This document shows, piece by piece, positions 51,563-57,889 of a stretch of DNA of 64,000 nt. Source of the stretch: Herbidospora yilanensis. Its GTDB lineage: Bacteria; Actinomycetota; Actinomycetes; Streptosporangiales; Streptosporangiaceae. The notes beneath the pieces were generated by a model. That model made no database searches, was not told where the DNA came from, and was given only the letters and a program-made list of their open reading frames with translations. The DNA lies in NCBI RefSeq assembly GCF_001570565.1, contig NZ_BBXE01000017.1, forward strand, positions 186,001 to 250,000. The letters run 5' to 3'. The position numbers were made by a program, and so were the translations under genes. Position 1 is the first letter of the stretch, and every line of letters begins with the position of its first letter.

Positions 51563-51655
51563 TTCCGTCACATCGATCGGCGGAGTACCGTCCTTCGTGG
51601 TGTGCCGGGAAGCCTGGTCGGCGATCGTCCTGTCCGATCGGCTTCTGGAGCCCCC
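51563..51655 (+). promoter_or_regulatory. Promoter and 5' leader, copy A of a repeated leader element
   Basis: TTCCGT (51563-51568), a 17-nt spacer, then TACCGT (51586-51591). The predicted start is near 51599. The leader core (51600-51622) contains GCCGGGAAGCCTGGTC. GAAGCC (51610-51615) can pair with GGCTTC at 51640-51645, enclosing two CGATCG copies that can also pair. GGAG and the ATPase ATG follow. Two other leaders in the window share the core. Confidence 0.6.
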
Positions 51656-52234
51656 ATGCCGGAAGGCAACGCCGTCCTCGTCCACGGCCTCACCAAACGG
51701 TTCGGCCACGTTCCCGCCCTCAACGGTCTCGACCTGGAAGTACGGACCGGCGAGGTGCACGGTTTCCTGGGCCCCAACGGGGCCGGCAAGACCACCGCGT
51801 TACGGATCATGCTCGGGCTCCTCCACGGCGACACGGGCAAGGTCGAGGTCCTGGGCGGCCATCCCTTCCGTGACGCGGTCGCGCTGCACCGGCGGCTGGC
51901 CTACGTCCCCGGCGACGTCACGCTGTGGCCTGGCCTGTCTTGCGACCGGGTCACCATCATCCGGGACGGGCGCGCGGTGGAGTCGGGCACCCTGGCCCAG
52001 CTCAGACATCTGACCCGGACGTCGGTCACCGCCGACCTGGCGGCGCTTCCTCCGGGGCTCGGCGATCTGTCCGGCGTGCACGGCCTGGAGGTGAGCGGCA
52101 CCCGGGTGAGCATGGAGGTCGACGCCGACCACCTCCAAACGATCATCACCGCGCTCACCCGGGCCGGGCTGCACGGCCTGACCTGTCAGCCGCCCACGCT
52201 GGAGCAGCTCTTCCTCCGGCACTACACGTCATGA
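51656..52234 (+). pseudogene. ABC exporter ATPase with its catalytic centre deleted in frame
   Basis: 192 residues instead of about 310. The N-terminal part is normal (Walker A LGPNGAGKTT, to YVPGDVTLWPGLS). The sequence then jumps to CDRVTIIRDGRAVESGT, which in relatives follows the H-loop. About 110-115 residues that hold the signature motif, Walker B, D-loop and H-loop are missing, without a frameshift. It cannot hydrolyse ATP as written. The intact permease follows with ATGA overlap. It may be a recent deletion, a dominant-negative remnant, or an assembly error. Confidence 0.8.
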
Positions 52235-55117: not shown

Positions 55118-55737
55118 CGCGTTTCCCGTTCCTTCCTGACCGCCTCCCAGGCGGTCAGCGCGCGGTCGTCGGCGAAGACGCCTCGGGTGAACATCTCGAC
55201 GGCGGCCCCGGAGTAGCGCATGGTGGCGTCGATGCCGTGCAGGTCGTCGACGTCGAGCGCGCGGGCCAGGTGGCTCTCCAGGACCAGCGGGGCCAGCAGC
55301 CACGAGACGTAGACGGCGGCGCGGGCGTGCGGGTCGGCCGCCGGGTGGGCCCAGCCCTCACGGGCCCCGTCGGCCAGCCATTTCCCGGTCAGCGTGACGA
55401 TCTCGTCGAACAGTGCCGCCGCGTCGGCCGAGCCGTCGAGCAGGGCGCGGGCCAGGTAGCGGCGGACCGGGGTGGCCGCCTCCAGCATCGCGGCCAGGCC
55501 CGAGGTGTCGGAGAGCACGCCGGAACCGGCCCCGCGGATCGCCTCGACGACGTAGCCGTCGCAGGCTCGGCGCAGCCCCTCCTTCGACCCGAAGTGGTGC
55601 AGCACCAGCGCCGGAGAGACCCCGGCGGCCGTGGCGACGGCCCGGACGCCGACCCCGGCGGCCCCATCGGCGCCGAACAGCTCCAGGGCCGCGTCACGGA
55701 TGCGGGCCCGGGCCGTGAGGTCATCGGTTGAACGCAT
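55114..55737 (-). CDS. TetR-family repressor of the glycosyltransferase operon
   Basis: 207 residues from ATG 55737 (MRSTDDLTARARIRDAALELFG). The helix-turn-helix is VRAVATAAGVSPALVLHHFGSKEGL. An in-frame ATG at 55746 lies inside the palindromic operator, so the later start is preferred. Its stop overlaps the glycosyltransferase ATG. Confidence 0.85.
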   Translation of the reverse strand: MRSTDDLTARARIRDAALELFGADGAAGVGVRAVATAAGVSPALVLHHFGSKEGLRRACDGYVVEAIRGAGSGVLSDTSGLAAMLEAATPVRRYLARALLDGSADAAALFDEIVTLTGKWLADGAREGWAHPAADPHARAAVYVSWLLAPLVLESHLARALDVDDLHGIDATMRYSGAAVEMFTRGVFADDRALTAWEAVRKERETR

Positions 55738-55753
55738 GTTCAGCATGCTAAAC
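55738..55753. promoter_or_regulatory. Palindromic operator for the TetR/glycosyltransferase pair
   Basis: GTTCAGCATGCTAAAC is a 16-bp inverted repeat with one mismatch per arm and a perfect AGCATGCT core. It lies directly upstream of the TetR ATG at 55737. A TACGAT -10 (minus strand, 55755-55760) precedes it, so a bound repressor would cover the start point. Confidence 0.7.
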
Positions 55754-55940
55754 GATCGTACAGTGGCGATGGCGTCAAGAAGACGTCAAGAATCCAGCCC
55801 GGGGCGTATTGATACCGTTTGTTGTGATGTGCCGGACGTTCCGCCGTCGGGGCGAGATCCCCGTCGGGAGATCATCGATGGCGGTAGCGGTGCCGATCAG
55901 GTGGTGGAGGCGCGGTTGGCCGCGCCGATCTCCAGGACGG

Positions 55941-55961
55941 TGCCCGACAGGCCGTCGGGCA
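55941..55961 (-). terminator. Hairpin after the PP2C phosphatase gene
   Basis: TGCCCGAC-AGGCC-GTCGGGCA is a perfect 8-bp stem with a 5-nt loop, 5 nt past the phosphatase stop on the minus strand. No T run follows. The remainder of 55754-55940 shows no gene. Confidence 0.6.
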
Positions 55962-55966
55962 GGCGA

Positions 55967-57007
55967 TCACCGTCGGACCAGCAGCATGGCCGCGTCGTCG
56001 GGCAGCGGCCCGCCGACGTGGCCGATCAGGTCGGCCCGCAGGTCGTCCAGCGCTCTCTGGGGATCGGGCTGGCCGAGAAGGCCGAGGCGGTCGGTCAACG
56101 GGTAGAACGCCCCGTTCCCGTCGCGGGCTTCGATCACGCCGTCGGTGTAGAGGAGCATCTGATCTCCCTGGGTGAACGGCACCCGCAGTGGTTTGGGCCC
56201 GGGCAGTCCCAGCGCGGCCAGTCCGAGGGGGAGGCTGTCCTCCTCGGGTTCGAGCAGCACGGCCCGCCCGTCGTGGCGGATGACCAGGGGCGGGGGGTGT
56301 CCGCAGTTCAGAACGGAGATCTCTCCGTCGTGCGTTTCGGCGATGACGGCGGTCACGAACGTCTCTCCGCTCAGGTGCCGGGCGAGGCTGGCCTCCAGAC
56401 GTTCGCCGACCCCGGAGAGGTCGTCCTCTTCGTAGGCCGCCTCCCGGAAGGCCCCGAGGACCCAGGCGGCCGTCTCGACGGAGGCCAGTCCTTTGCCCTG
56501 GACGTCGCCGATCAGCAGGCGCACCCCCTTGGGCGTGGTGACCACCTCGTAGAGATCGCCGCCGATCTGGGCCTCGGCGGCGGCGGAGGTATAGGACAGC
56601 GCCACCCGCAGATCGCCGGCCCGGCGCGGGACCGGCCGCAGCAGGACCCGCTGCGCCGCCTCGGCCACCAGCCGGAGGTTCGCCAGTTCCCGCTCCCTTT
56701 TGAGCCGTAGATGGCTGACCACGGTGGCCGCGCAGGTCACCCCGACGATCGTCGCCAGGGTGACGTTGTTCTGCCGGGTGAACAACAGCTCGTTGTAGGC
56801 CGCCAGCGGCACGCACAGGGCGAGCGCCACCAGGCCCGTCACGGCCGTGCGCCGGACACTTCCCACCGCGGCGCCGAACGTGGGCCCGAGAGTCAGGAGG
56901 GGAAGGAACCCCAGCGTCGGGCCCGCGACGACGTCGGCGACGGCGACGGCGAGCATCACCGTGACCGGCAATGCCCCGAGAACCGCCTGCGGCCTCATCT
57001 CACGCAC
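55967..57007 (-). CDS. Membrane-anchored SpoIIE-type PP2C phosphatase
   Basis: 346 residues. Three to four N-terminal TM helices (about 10-95) precede a cytoplasmic PP2C phosphatase domain with metal-binding Asp residues in GGDLYEVV and IGDVQGKG, LNCGHPPP, LLYTDGVIEARD and DDAAMLLVRR. Such proteins dephosphorylate STAS anti-anti-sigma factors, and one is encoded next door. The GTG at 57007 has GGAG 6 nt upstream; ATG 56998, in an ATGA overlap with the preceding ORF, is equally possible. Confidence 0.9.
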   Translation of the reverse strand: MREMRPQAVLGALPVTVMLAVAVADVVAGPTLGFLPLLTLGPTFGAAVGSVRRTAVTGLVALALCVPLAAYNELLFTRQNNVTLATIVGVTCAATVVSHLRLKRERELANLRLVAEAAQRVLLRPVPRRAGDLRVALSYTSAAAEAQIGGDLYEVVTTPKGVRLLIGDVQGKGLASVETAAWVLGAFREAAYEEDDLSGVGERLEASLARHLSGETFVTAVIAETHDGEISVLNCGHPPPLVIRHDGRAVLLEPEEDSLPLGLAALGLPGPKPLRVPFTQGDQMLLYTDGVIEARDGNGAFYPLTDRLGLLGQPDPQRALDDLRADLIGHVGGPLPDDAAMLLVRR

Positions 57008-57285
57008 CTCTTTCTCCGCGCCGACCCGATGCTCTGCCCGTCAAAGACGGTTGCATACTGCAATGGTCTTACGCTCGTCCCGAGCACCCGCATTCCGTCG
57101 CCGAACGGCACGGCGAACAAGGCGATGTCGTCGGGCCGCAGACGGACGGGGCCGAACGCTCCGTCGCCTGACAGGGGACCAGAGACCGGGAACAGCGCCA
57201 CGGTCGGCAGGATCGTGCGGTTGGCCGGGCTGGACAGCGGCACCGCGAGCAGGGCCGCCGCGAACGGGGGCGGCAGTGCGGCCAT
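56995..57285 (-). CDS. Hypothetical protein between leader element B and the phosphatase
   Basis: 96 residues from ATG 57285, which follows GGAGG with 6-nt spacing. Third positions are almost all G or C until about residue 70. Then the frame runs through the TTGCATACTGCAA palindrome and ends in the phosphatase start (ATGA). It starts MAALPPPFAAALLAVPLSS and has no clear TM helix or domain. It may be a real leader gene of the phosphatase or a decayed gene whose 3' part became the promoter. Confidence 0.45.
   Translation of the reverse strand: MAALPPPFAAALLAVPLSSPANRTILPTVALFPVSGPLSGDGAFGPVRLRPDDIALFAVPFGDGMRVLGTSVRPLQYATVFDGQSIGSARRKRCVR
57051..57063. promoter_or_regulatory. TTGCA-TAC-TGCAA palindrome upstream of the phosphatase
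   Basis: A perfect inverted repeat with 5-bp arms, 44 nt before the phosphatase start and inside the preceding small ORF. It resembles the site TTGCA-TAT-TGCA at 57397-57408, so both may bind one regulator. Confidence 0.5.
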
Positions 57286-57351
57286 CACGGGCCTCCGGGA
57301 GGGCTGTCGATCGGACGGCTTGGACATTGCCGACCAGACTTCCCGGCGCAC
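57286..57351 (-). promoter_or_regulatory. 5' leader, copy B of the repeated leader element
   Basis: On the minus strand the 23-nt core (57351 down to 57329) contains GCCGGGAAGTCTGGTC. A TCCGATCG match to copy A follows, then GGAGG and the ATG at 57285. A -10-like GATAAG lies about 10 nt upstream. An in-frame ATG at 57327 directly after the core lacks a Shine-Dalgarno sequence. Confidence 0.55.
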
Positions 57352-57377
57352 CGTGATCGACCTTATCAGCGAGGCCA

Positions 57378-57408: not shown

Positions 57409-57432
57409 GCTGTCTGCTAGCGTGAGCCGTAG

Positions 57433-57489
57433 GTGTGCCGGGAAGTCTGGTCGGCGAGTCCGTGTTCGCGCTCCGCGCTGGAGGCCGCC
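57433..57489 (+). promoter_or_regulatory. 5' leader, copy C of the repeated leader element
   Basis: The 23-nt core (57433-57455) contains GCCGGGAAGTCTGGTC and differs from copy B at one position and from copy A at one. A -10-like TAGCGT (57418-57423) precedes it by 9 nt. GGAGG (57480-57484) and the ATG of a short ORF follow. Confidence 0.6.
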
Positions 57490-57528
57490 ATGCTCGTCCG
57501 CAGTCCTCTCCCGGCCCGTCATGGCTGA
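57490..57528 (+). CDS. Twelve-codon upstream ORF overlapping the STAS start
   Basis: ATG with a strong GGAGG at 5-nt spacing encodes MLVRSPLPARHG. Its TGA lies within ATGGCTGA, where ATGGC begins the STAS gene. The STAS ATG itself has no Shine-Dalgarno sequence, so its translation probably depends on re-initiation after this ORF. Confidence 0.55.
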   Translation: MLVRSPLPARHG

Positions 57529-57889
57529 GGTGTCCGTCTCCCAGTTCATGATCGTCGGCCGGATCGTCATTCTCCAGATCGGCGGCGAACTGGCGGTGGA
57601 CAACTGCGGCGAGGTCCAGCAGGGCCTCGCCCGCGCCCTGGCCGTCCACGACCCGCCTCGCCTCGTCGTCGACCTGAGCGAGCTTTCCTCCTCCGACTCC
57701 TACGGACTCGCCGCCCTCATGGGAGCGGATCGGCATGCCCGTGAGACGAACGGCCGGATGCTCGTCGCGGGCGCCACCGATCTCGTCCGGGTGGAACTGC
57801 GCAGGCGAGGTCTGGATGAGGTGCTCACGCTCCGGCGAACGGTGAGTGAGGCCATCGTCGAGCTGCGGATGTTCTCGCCGGACGGTTAG
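57521..57889 (+). CDS. STAS-domain anti-anti-sigma factor-like protein
   Basis: 122 residues, one STAS domain (VILQIGGELAVDNCGEVQQGL; RLVVDLSELSSSDSYGLAALMGA). The Ser after Asp in SDSYG corresponds to the residue phosphorylated by anti-sigma kinases and dephosphorylated by SpoIIE-type phosphatases; Tyr replaces the usual second Ser. It faces the PP2C gene, suggesting one partner-switching pair. No anti-sigma kinase or sigma factor is in the window. It is convergent with the MarR gene, the stops overlapping. Confidence 0.85.
   Translation: MAEVSVSQFMIVGRIVILQIGGELAVDNCGEVQQGLARALAVHDPPRLVVDLSELSSSDSYGLAALMGADRHARETNGRMLVAGATDLVRVELRRRGLDEVLTLRRTVSEAIVELRMFSPDG

Follow-up and report, generated by a model that had tools for sequence, protein, structure and literature searches.

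Why should three genes of seemingly unrelated function carry the same short leader? The question arises from a stretch of 64,000 nucleotides (nt) of the Herbidospora yilanensis genome (contig NZ_BBXE01000017.1; the window hereafter), in which a sequence-only reading had proposed a candidate cis-regulatory RNA in front of an ABC ATPase gene, a hypothetical open reading frame (ORF) and a short upstream ORF (uORF) that precedes a STAS gene. The candidate gained weight on closer analysis: no Rfam family accounts for it, it recurs in relatives and its stem carries compensatory changes. Comparison of the copies suggests that the element supplies the first ~25 nt of mRNAs for Na+/H+ antiporters and other proteins of ion homeostasis in Actinomycetota, where it would act as a cis-regulatory RNA with a hairpin sensor and control over translation, a reading to which we assign a rough probability of 0.55. 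That the element is a structured cis-regulatory RNA of some kind appears very likely. That it is a riboswitch for Na+ or pH in particular is a tentative proposal, for which the odds are somewhat short of even.

A 24-nt element conserved near promoters of Actinomycetota

Re-alignments reproduced the 23-nt core at the three sites (copies A, B and C; Table 1), with at least 21 matching positions. A scan of the whole window placed the exact 16-mer GCCGGGAAGYCTGGTC at 51604-51619 (+), 57332-57347 (-) and 57437-57452 (+), and the complete conserved element spans 24 nt with the pattern GGNGN-GCCGGGAAG-N-CNGGUCGGC. With up to 3 mismatches allowed, the window holds 7 matches to the 16-mer versus 3.83 expected from shuffles; the four additional matches have 3 mismatches each, a level that shuffles also reach. 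Copies B and C are divergent and separated by 79 nt. The distance from the end of the core to the ATG is 33 nt (A), 43 nt (B) and 34 nt (C), as first described, and the downstream sequence TCCGATCG was indeed found in both A and B.

The host genome (7.85 Mb in 67 contigs) contains 7 matches at no more than 1 mismatch, versus 0 for the reversed pattern. Besides copies A to C, these comprise two on contig C46, one before an nhaA gene and the other before a CBS-domain gene, and one each on contigs C50 and C34. The match on C34 (L006) lacks a -10 box and is probably due to chance. The copy on C50 (L007, about 55588-56274) carries U8 and stands before a truncated NhaA. As proposed in the sequence-only reading, related genomes were searched, and the element recurred in both the family and the phylum. 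At up to 3 mismatches, 111 of 120 genomes of the family were matched (reversed control: 17 matches, a hand count among the matches listed), and the pattern GGNGNGCCGGGAAGNCTGGTCGGC was present at up to 2 mismatches in 59 of 198 genomes of Actinomycetota from many families (reversed control: 10 matches in 9 genomes, also counted by hand). An exact scan of genome contigs, through which alone the other phyla were covered, returned at least 119 stretches; all 80 titles listed name Actinomycetota, among them Streptomyces, Mycobacterium, Arthrobacter, Microbacterium and Micromonospora, and also an Acidimicrobiaceae metagenome-assembled genome. Judged by the counts in the host genome and the phylum-wide distribution, the window copies are not due to chance. 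Among the near-matches listed, variation falls mainly on positions 3, 5, 15 and 17. The loop GGAAGNCNGGU and the 5' GGNG show very little variation.

The position of the element relative to the promoter was examined in 167 distinct exact copies, in which the fixed positions have 2 bits as a result of the selection criterion. On the upstream side, the -10 box is the prominent signal. A TANNNT motif ends 7-8 nt before base 1 of the element in 117 of the 167 copies, versus 3 of 167 at that distance in a control region (-60 to -31), and such a motif lies 7, 7 and 8 nt upstream of copies A, B and C, at the place where a promoter had been suspected. Downstream, position 25 has 0.69 bits and the sequence beyond it drops to background, with a slight C-rich rise at +36 to +42 (0.25-0.38 bits) as the one exception. 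The usual spacing between the -10 box and +1 puts the transcript start at base -1 or +1 of the element. Given this spacing and the fixed distance of the -10 box, the mRNA probably starts with the element, and transcription is predicted to begin at its first base. Two loci (L217 and L218) have a G at position 17 and their nearest TANNNT at 10-12 nt; by eye, both precede genes resembling Mrp-type antiporter subunits.

A 5'-terminal hairpin could also be an RNA thermometer or an element that stabilizes the mRNA 5' end, rather than a specific switch. Hairpins at the 5' terminus can stabilize mRNAs and the leaders in question are short, yet neither function calls for a loop and 5' tail with almost no variation. 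The sequence is also conserved across classes of Actinomycetota, and we regard this explanation as very improbable. Least credible of all is a promoter-linked or mobile repeat without RNA function. The element is multi-copy, lies near promoters and is present three times within 6 kb of the window. However, the flanks differ between copies in the rows viewed, the place at the promoter is fixed and viral contigs gave 0 matches to the element, so that a mobile or phage origin, the refutation initially envisaged, was rejected. The compensatory changes and specific gene partners described below argue in the same direction.

Table 1. Features of the window that relate to the element. Coordinates are window positions; those of minus-strand features are given on the forward strand.
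Feature	Position	Strand	Basis or remark
Copy A of the 24-nt element, predicted mRNA 5' end	51599..51622	+	Stem 51604-51607 with 51619-51622, backed by compensatory changes in relatives
-10 box TACCGT of copy A	51586..51591	+	7 nt upstream of the element; sequence reading; position class set over 167 copies
Anti-core CCGATCGGCTTC of copy A	51634..51645	+	Complementary to core nt 18-23 (one G-U) and 11-16; complement class enriched (exact Watson-Crick only)
ABC ATPase gene after copy A, 192 aa, apparently internally shortened	51656..52234	+	PF00005 positions 1-87 of 137; compare L011
Copy B of the element	57329..57352	-	-10 box TAAGGT at 57360-57365 (-), 7 nt away
Anti-core CCGATC of copy B	57309..57314	-	Sequence reading
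ORF after copy B, decayed N-terminal fragment of a CPA1-type Na+/H+ exchanger	56995..57285	-	Without Pfam match; alignments to exchangers
SpoIIE-type phosphatase, next gene after copy B	55967..57007	-	PF07228; begins within the 3' end of the fragment ORF
Copy C of the element	57432..57455	+	-10 box TAGCGT at 57418-57423, 8 nt upstream
12-codon uORF after copy C	57490..57528	+	Sequence reading; overlaps the STAS start
STAS-domain protein after copy C, anti-sigma-factor-antagonist type	57521..57889	+	PF01740, PF13466

Compensatory changes support a four-base-pair stem

The predicted stem consists of 4 base pairs, positions 6-9 with 21-24 (G6CCG9/C21GGC24). Following the original suggestion to look for compensatory changes, we searched for copies changed on both sides of one pair. 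Pair 7/23 yielded 8 double-change matches in 394 genomes, 5 of them U-A (G207, G404, G609, G540 and G636), pair 8/22 yielded 3 in 296 genomes, 2 of them U-A, and pair 6/24 yielded 2 in 158 genomes, both U-A. The counts exclude G150, where a match with two mismatches shows a G7-C23 exchange. All nine U-A matches have a TANNNT 7-8 nt upstream, and five other double-change matches (3 at 7/23, 1 at 8/22 and 1 at 9/21) have none within 25 nt. Double changes in a promoter context thus restore Watson-Crick pairing in 9 of 9 cases, at three of the four pairs. By Pfam, the genes that follow the nine U-A copies encode NhaA (L242, L243, L247, L250 and L251), DUF2254 (L244), an Mrp/complex-I-type antiporter subunit (L246) and ABC ATPases (L253 and L254). 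Single changes at 7/23 are scarce: a set of 296 genomes has 0 copies with U7 alone and one with A23 alone, and the doubles of G207, G404 and G540 come from this same set.

An alignment of 39 copies (A1) gave a structure score of 0.232 versus 0.140 in shuffles (0 of 500 reached the observed value) and at most 0.093 in slid versions. The copies were chosen to include all nine double mutants as well as a locus with a broken stem (L256), and the pair counts are thus enriched. Of five measures, one (further pair types) was not above shuffles, and the number of pairs with two-sided changes was reached by 36 of 500 shuffles. An alternative hairpin, C7CGG10/C16NGG19, was dropped: the G17 of L217 and L218 (by eye) breaks it, and the double changes fit 6-9/21-24.

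Positions 5 and 25, immediately below the stem, combine in a pattern of their own. Across the 167 copies, they are U-G in 80, C-A in 43, A-A in 15, U-A in 11, A-G in 8, U-C in 5 and U-U in 2, with A-C, C-C and C-U found once each and C-G in 0. Both main types, U-G and C-A, occur within the NhaA, CBS and ABC groups. U-G and protonated C-A are isosteric wobble pairs. For this reason, selection seems to maintain 5/25 as a closing pair of non-Watson-Crick type. A DNA palindrome would be expected to conserve the opposite combinations. Because a C-A pair is isosteric with U-G only when protonated, the exchange also hints that proton binding could tune the sensor.

These data bear on whether the site acts as RNA or as DNA. 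In the latter case, a dimeric transcription factor would bind the partly palindromic sequence from +1 to +25 and block initiation. In favour of this, the two halves of the stem form a dyad in the DNA around N15, the site overlaps the promoter with constant spacing, and a dyad would also survive symmetric double changes. Yet the 5/25 positions avoid palindromic combinations (C-G in 0 and U-A in 11 of 167) and favour U-G and C-A, which are natural for wobble-type pairs in RNA. Further, canonical and U7-A23 copies coexist in one genome (G207), which argues against an altered protein specificity, and at 7/23 changes on one side only, which operators usually tolerate, do not outnumber doubles (1 versus 3 in the same 296 genomes, small numbers both). 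The enrichment of a complementary sequence downstream (see below) is a further point against an operator, which we consider improbable. Action as RNA is the reading that we prefer for the element.

The element mostly precedes genes for cation transport

To describe the genes that the element would control, ORFs after 169 distinct copies were clustered (22 stayed unclustered). Related genomes are included, so the events are not independent, and Pfam names refer to cluster representatives and some single genes only. The NhaA group (representative PF06965) accounts for 90 of the 169 copies, followed by CBS (13), CPA1 (PF00999; 10), ABC ATPase (7), CitMHS/ArsB (6, 2 of them shared with CBS), DUF2254 (5) and small groups, including a STAS group with 2 copies. 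In 12 of 13 cases, a CitMHS/ArsB-type permease gene is directly next to the CBS gene. TrkH, TrkA_N, Na_Ca_ex and SpoIIE are single targets. About 119 of the 169 copies thus precede cation-transporter genes (NhaA 90, CBS-CitMHS 12, further CitMHS/ArsB 4, CPA1 10 and TrkH/TrkA/Na/Ca 3), a set that by comparison of family assignments is largely one of ion transport.

The association with NhaA was examined by hand in 25 genomes of the family, which encode 41 full-length NhaA proteins. The element lies just upstream of 15 of the 19 stand-alone genes (frame of up to 472 aa) and of 1 of the 22 with a longer frame, a class represented in the host genome by a thioredoxin fusion. By this comparison, the association between the element and NhaA is specific. 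The element was also seen before PPDK/PEP-utiliser, glycosyltransferase, hydrolase and ABC ATPase genes (L095, L158, L142, L174 and L011), and the genes downstream at L110 and L093 matched no Pfam family. As a guess, the regulon may extend to drug or envelope stress.

How do the three genes of the window fit this picture? The ORF after copy B, labelled hypothetical in the sequence-only reading, is a decayed fragment of a CPA1 Na+/H+ exchanger, followed by a SpoIIE phosphatase gene. Its 96-aa product aligns to a CPA1 exchanger (L173) with 49% over 67 positions and to a relative (L033) with 53% over 77 positions, and the L033 protein itself aligns to two separated parts of the L173 exchanger. 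From these alignments, at least one of the three genes is a Na+/H+ exchanger by descent. The description of the genes as unrelated was correct only in part, since most of the regulon serves cation transport. Copy B is intact although the gene below it is a decayed fragment, and the overlapping SpoIIE gene may now be its real target; at another locus (L153), a SpoIIE gene is directly 3' of the element. The ABC ATPase after copy A has a partial match to PF00005 followed by a weak DrrA-type C-terminal match, with the middle gone, and its relative in locus L011 (298 aa) aligns over all 137 PF00005 positions. The gene is either internally shortened or affected by an assembly fault. After copy C, the uORF has a counterpart in L014, a relative with a comparable short frame after the element.

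A downstream anti-core could compete with the hairpin

Sequences complementary to the core are over-represented downstream of the element. Between +27 and +75, the exact complement of core positions 18-22 (CGACC) was found in 54 of the 167 copies versus 25.4 in dinucleotide shuffles (z 8.0), the strongest over-representation among all core 5-mers, and the exact complement of positions 18-23 was found in 34 versus 13.1 expected. This anti-core often lies shortly 5' of the Shine-Dalgarno sequence in the rows viewed, and in copy A directly so (Shine-Dalgarno sequence at 51647-51650). In copy A and its ABC relatives (L011, L027 and L035), the anti-core is extended such that core positions 11-16 can pair as well. 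This is the GAAGCC/GGCTTC pairing recognized at the outset; both strings are there, and the predicted fold of leader A uses it. A pseudoknot between the loop and downstream sequence through G18-U20 alone was dropped, as the enriched words include partners of 21-23. The hairpin cannot form while core 18-23 is paired with the anti-core, so that a switch between the two states is possible in principle.

We propose a mechanism in which the 5'-terminal hairpin G6CCG9/C21GGC24, flanked below by the covarying and mostly non-Watson-Crick 5/25 pair, would be the sensor, with a stability that may depend on a small ligand. The targets include several families of Na+/H+ antiporters (NhaA, CPA1, the CitMHS/ArsB type and an Mrp-type gene), and for this reason the signal would most likely be Na+, some other monovalent cation or pH. 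The downstream anti-core (CCGACC type), which has statistical support and is present in part of the copies, would pair with core positions 18-23 and compete with the hairpin ahead of the Shine-Dalgarno site. As this site starts only ~50 nt from base 1, the competition may set translation initiation, and either state could be ON.

Several observations weigh against this model. In the stem, pair 9/21 showed no compensatory change, its single match in 158 genomes being A9/G21 and lacking a -10 box; L256, which has a -10 box and precedes a CPA1-like gene, has a broken stem (C7 with A23); L014, the relative of copy C, combines U7-G23 with a C8/C22 mismatch; and the counts of double and single changes are small. 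Among the targets, ABC exporters, the PPDK type, hydrolases, a glycosyltransferase and an acyltransferase lack an obvious link to ions. The exact 5-nt anti-core is present in only about a third of the copies, with none in copy C, the complement of core 18-22 is not enriched when G-U pairs are allowed (132 versus 123.2, z 1.7) and part of the excess may come from shared descent. The folds of the window leaders are not unusually stable (z -1.60, -0.93 and +1.21). Thermodynamic tests covered 124 of the 167 copies, the 43 without a recognized Shine-Dalgarno sequence or start being skipped. In these leaders, forcing the hairpin lowered the predicted accessibility of the Shine-Dalgarno site (-0.073 versus -0.023 with shuffled linkers, p 0.012), opposite to the direction expected if the hairpin freed the ribosome site, and the simplest thermodynamic switch, in which hairpin formation exposes the site, found no support. 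The mean probability of the hairpin in the free fold was 0.001, versus 0.017 with shuffled linkers. Almost never formed in the free fold, the hairpin would need a ligand, a protein or tertiary contacts, and energy rules that include neither ligand nor tertiary contacts may be a poor guide here.

The main rival holds that an RNA-binding protein (or small RNA) binds to the leader instead and thereby represses or activates translation. Protein-bound leaders typically contain a short hairpin that, loop included, is nearly invariant; this hairpin is weak by itself, and the mixed downstream functions would suit a global regulator. Set against these points, two features resemble a small aptamer, namely the conservation of the 5' GGNG beyond the hairpin and the covariation of a non-canonical pair at 5/25, and the targets mostly share one physiological theme. 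On balance, we consider a protein or small RNA site unlikely, though the strongest of the competing explanations. If the hairpin itself senses the signal, the element could be the first Na+ or pH riboswitch of Actinobacteria, a minimal 5'-terminal aptamer of ~25 nt that governs several kinds of antiporters throughout the phylum; we put this forward as a possibility, with roughly one chance in three of being correct.

Comparison with known regulatory systems

How actinobacteria sense sodium or alkaline stress to adjust antiporter levels has no description at the RNA level in the literature searched. An element common to NhaA, CPA1, CBS-CitMHS, an Mrp-type gene, TrkH and the stress-signalling STAS/SpoIIE genes would delineate a regulon for ion homeostasis, recognizable from sequence in many genomes. 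If direct ligand binding holds true, the element would rank among the smallest natural sensors, with a place at the extreme 5' terminus of the mRNA. Covariation-based searches may have failed to report it because it is so small and nearly invariant.

At gathering thresholds, no Rfam family matched in the window, the outcome of the Rfam comparison suggested for the leaders. Permissive scans around copies A to C (E up to 10) and at five loci (E up to 5) returned only microRNA, long non-coding RNA and other unrelated families. The best of these matches, MIR8622 (E 0.0055), was dismissed because it comes from copies B and C, whose inverted arrangement was taken for a single long hairpin. Scans with Rfam 15, which to our knowledge holds each of these families, gave no match to the Li+-I, Li+-II or Na+-I riboswitches. 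The core strings were found in no paper searched, and a topic search identified no description of the motif in the titles and abstract starts among the matches listed (subscription papers and supplements lay outside the search). The best reading is that the element represents a putative new 5'-terminal cis-regulatory RNA.

Its closest functional counterparts are riboswitches for monovalent cations. The Li+-I and Li+-II riboswitches (nhaA-I and nhaA-II motifs) and Na+-II variants are leaders of nhaA and other cation-transporter genes with ion-responsive expression (PMC9646797), and share with the element this position before nhaA and cation-transporter genes. They differ in architecture: nhaA-I is described with stems P1 and P2 in a 73-nt construct (PMC9646797), whereas the element has ~25 conserved nt and one 4-bp stem. 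The main text of that paper does not contain the word 'Actinobacteria'. The Na+-I riboswitch (DUF1646 motif) regulates genes of sodium biology, some annotated as antiporters, and so has a job similar to that proposed here; by the description given there, it has two paired regions (PMC9337991), as opposed to one stem in the element. Synthesis of a Na+/H+ antiporter is also controlled in Escherichia coli, where NhaR and CsrA act on nhaA, but these regulators are proteins (PMC6307784). Lastly, the dauA motif is, like the element, an actinobacterial leader before STAS genes; it is described as a three-stem junction that includes the Shine-Dalgarno site, with 57 representatives from Streptomyces (PMC11109978). 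Its description sets it apart from the element, which has one small stem, a phylum-wide distribution and the STAS genes as a minor part of a target set dominated by NhaA.
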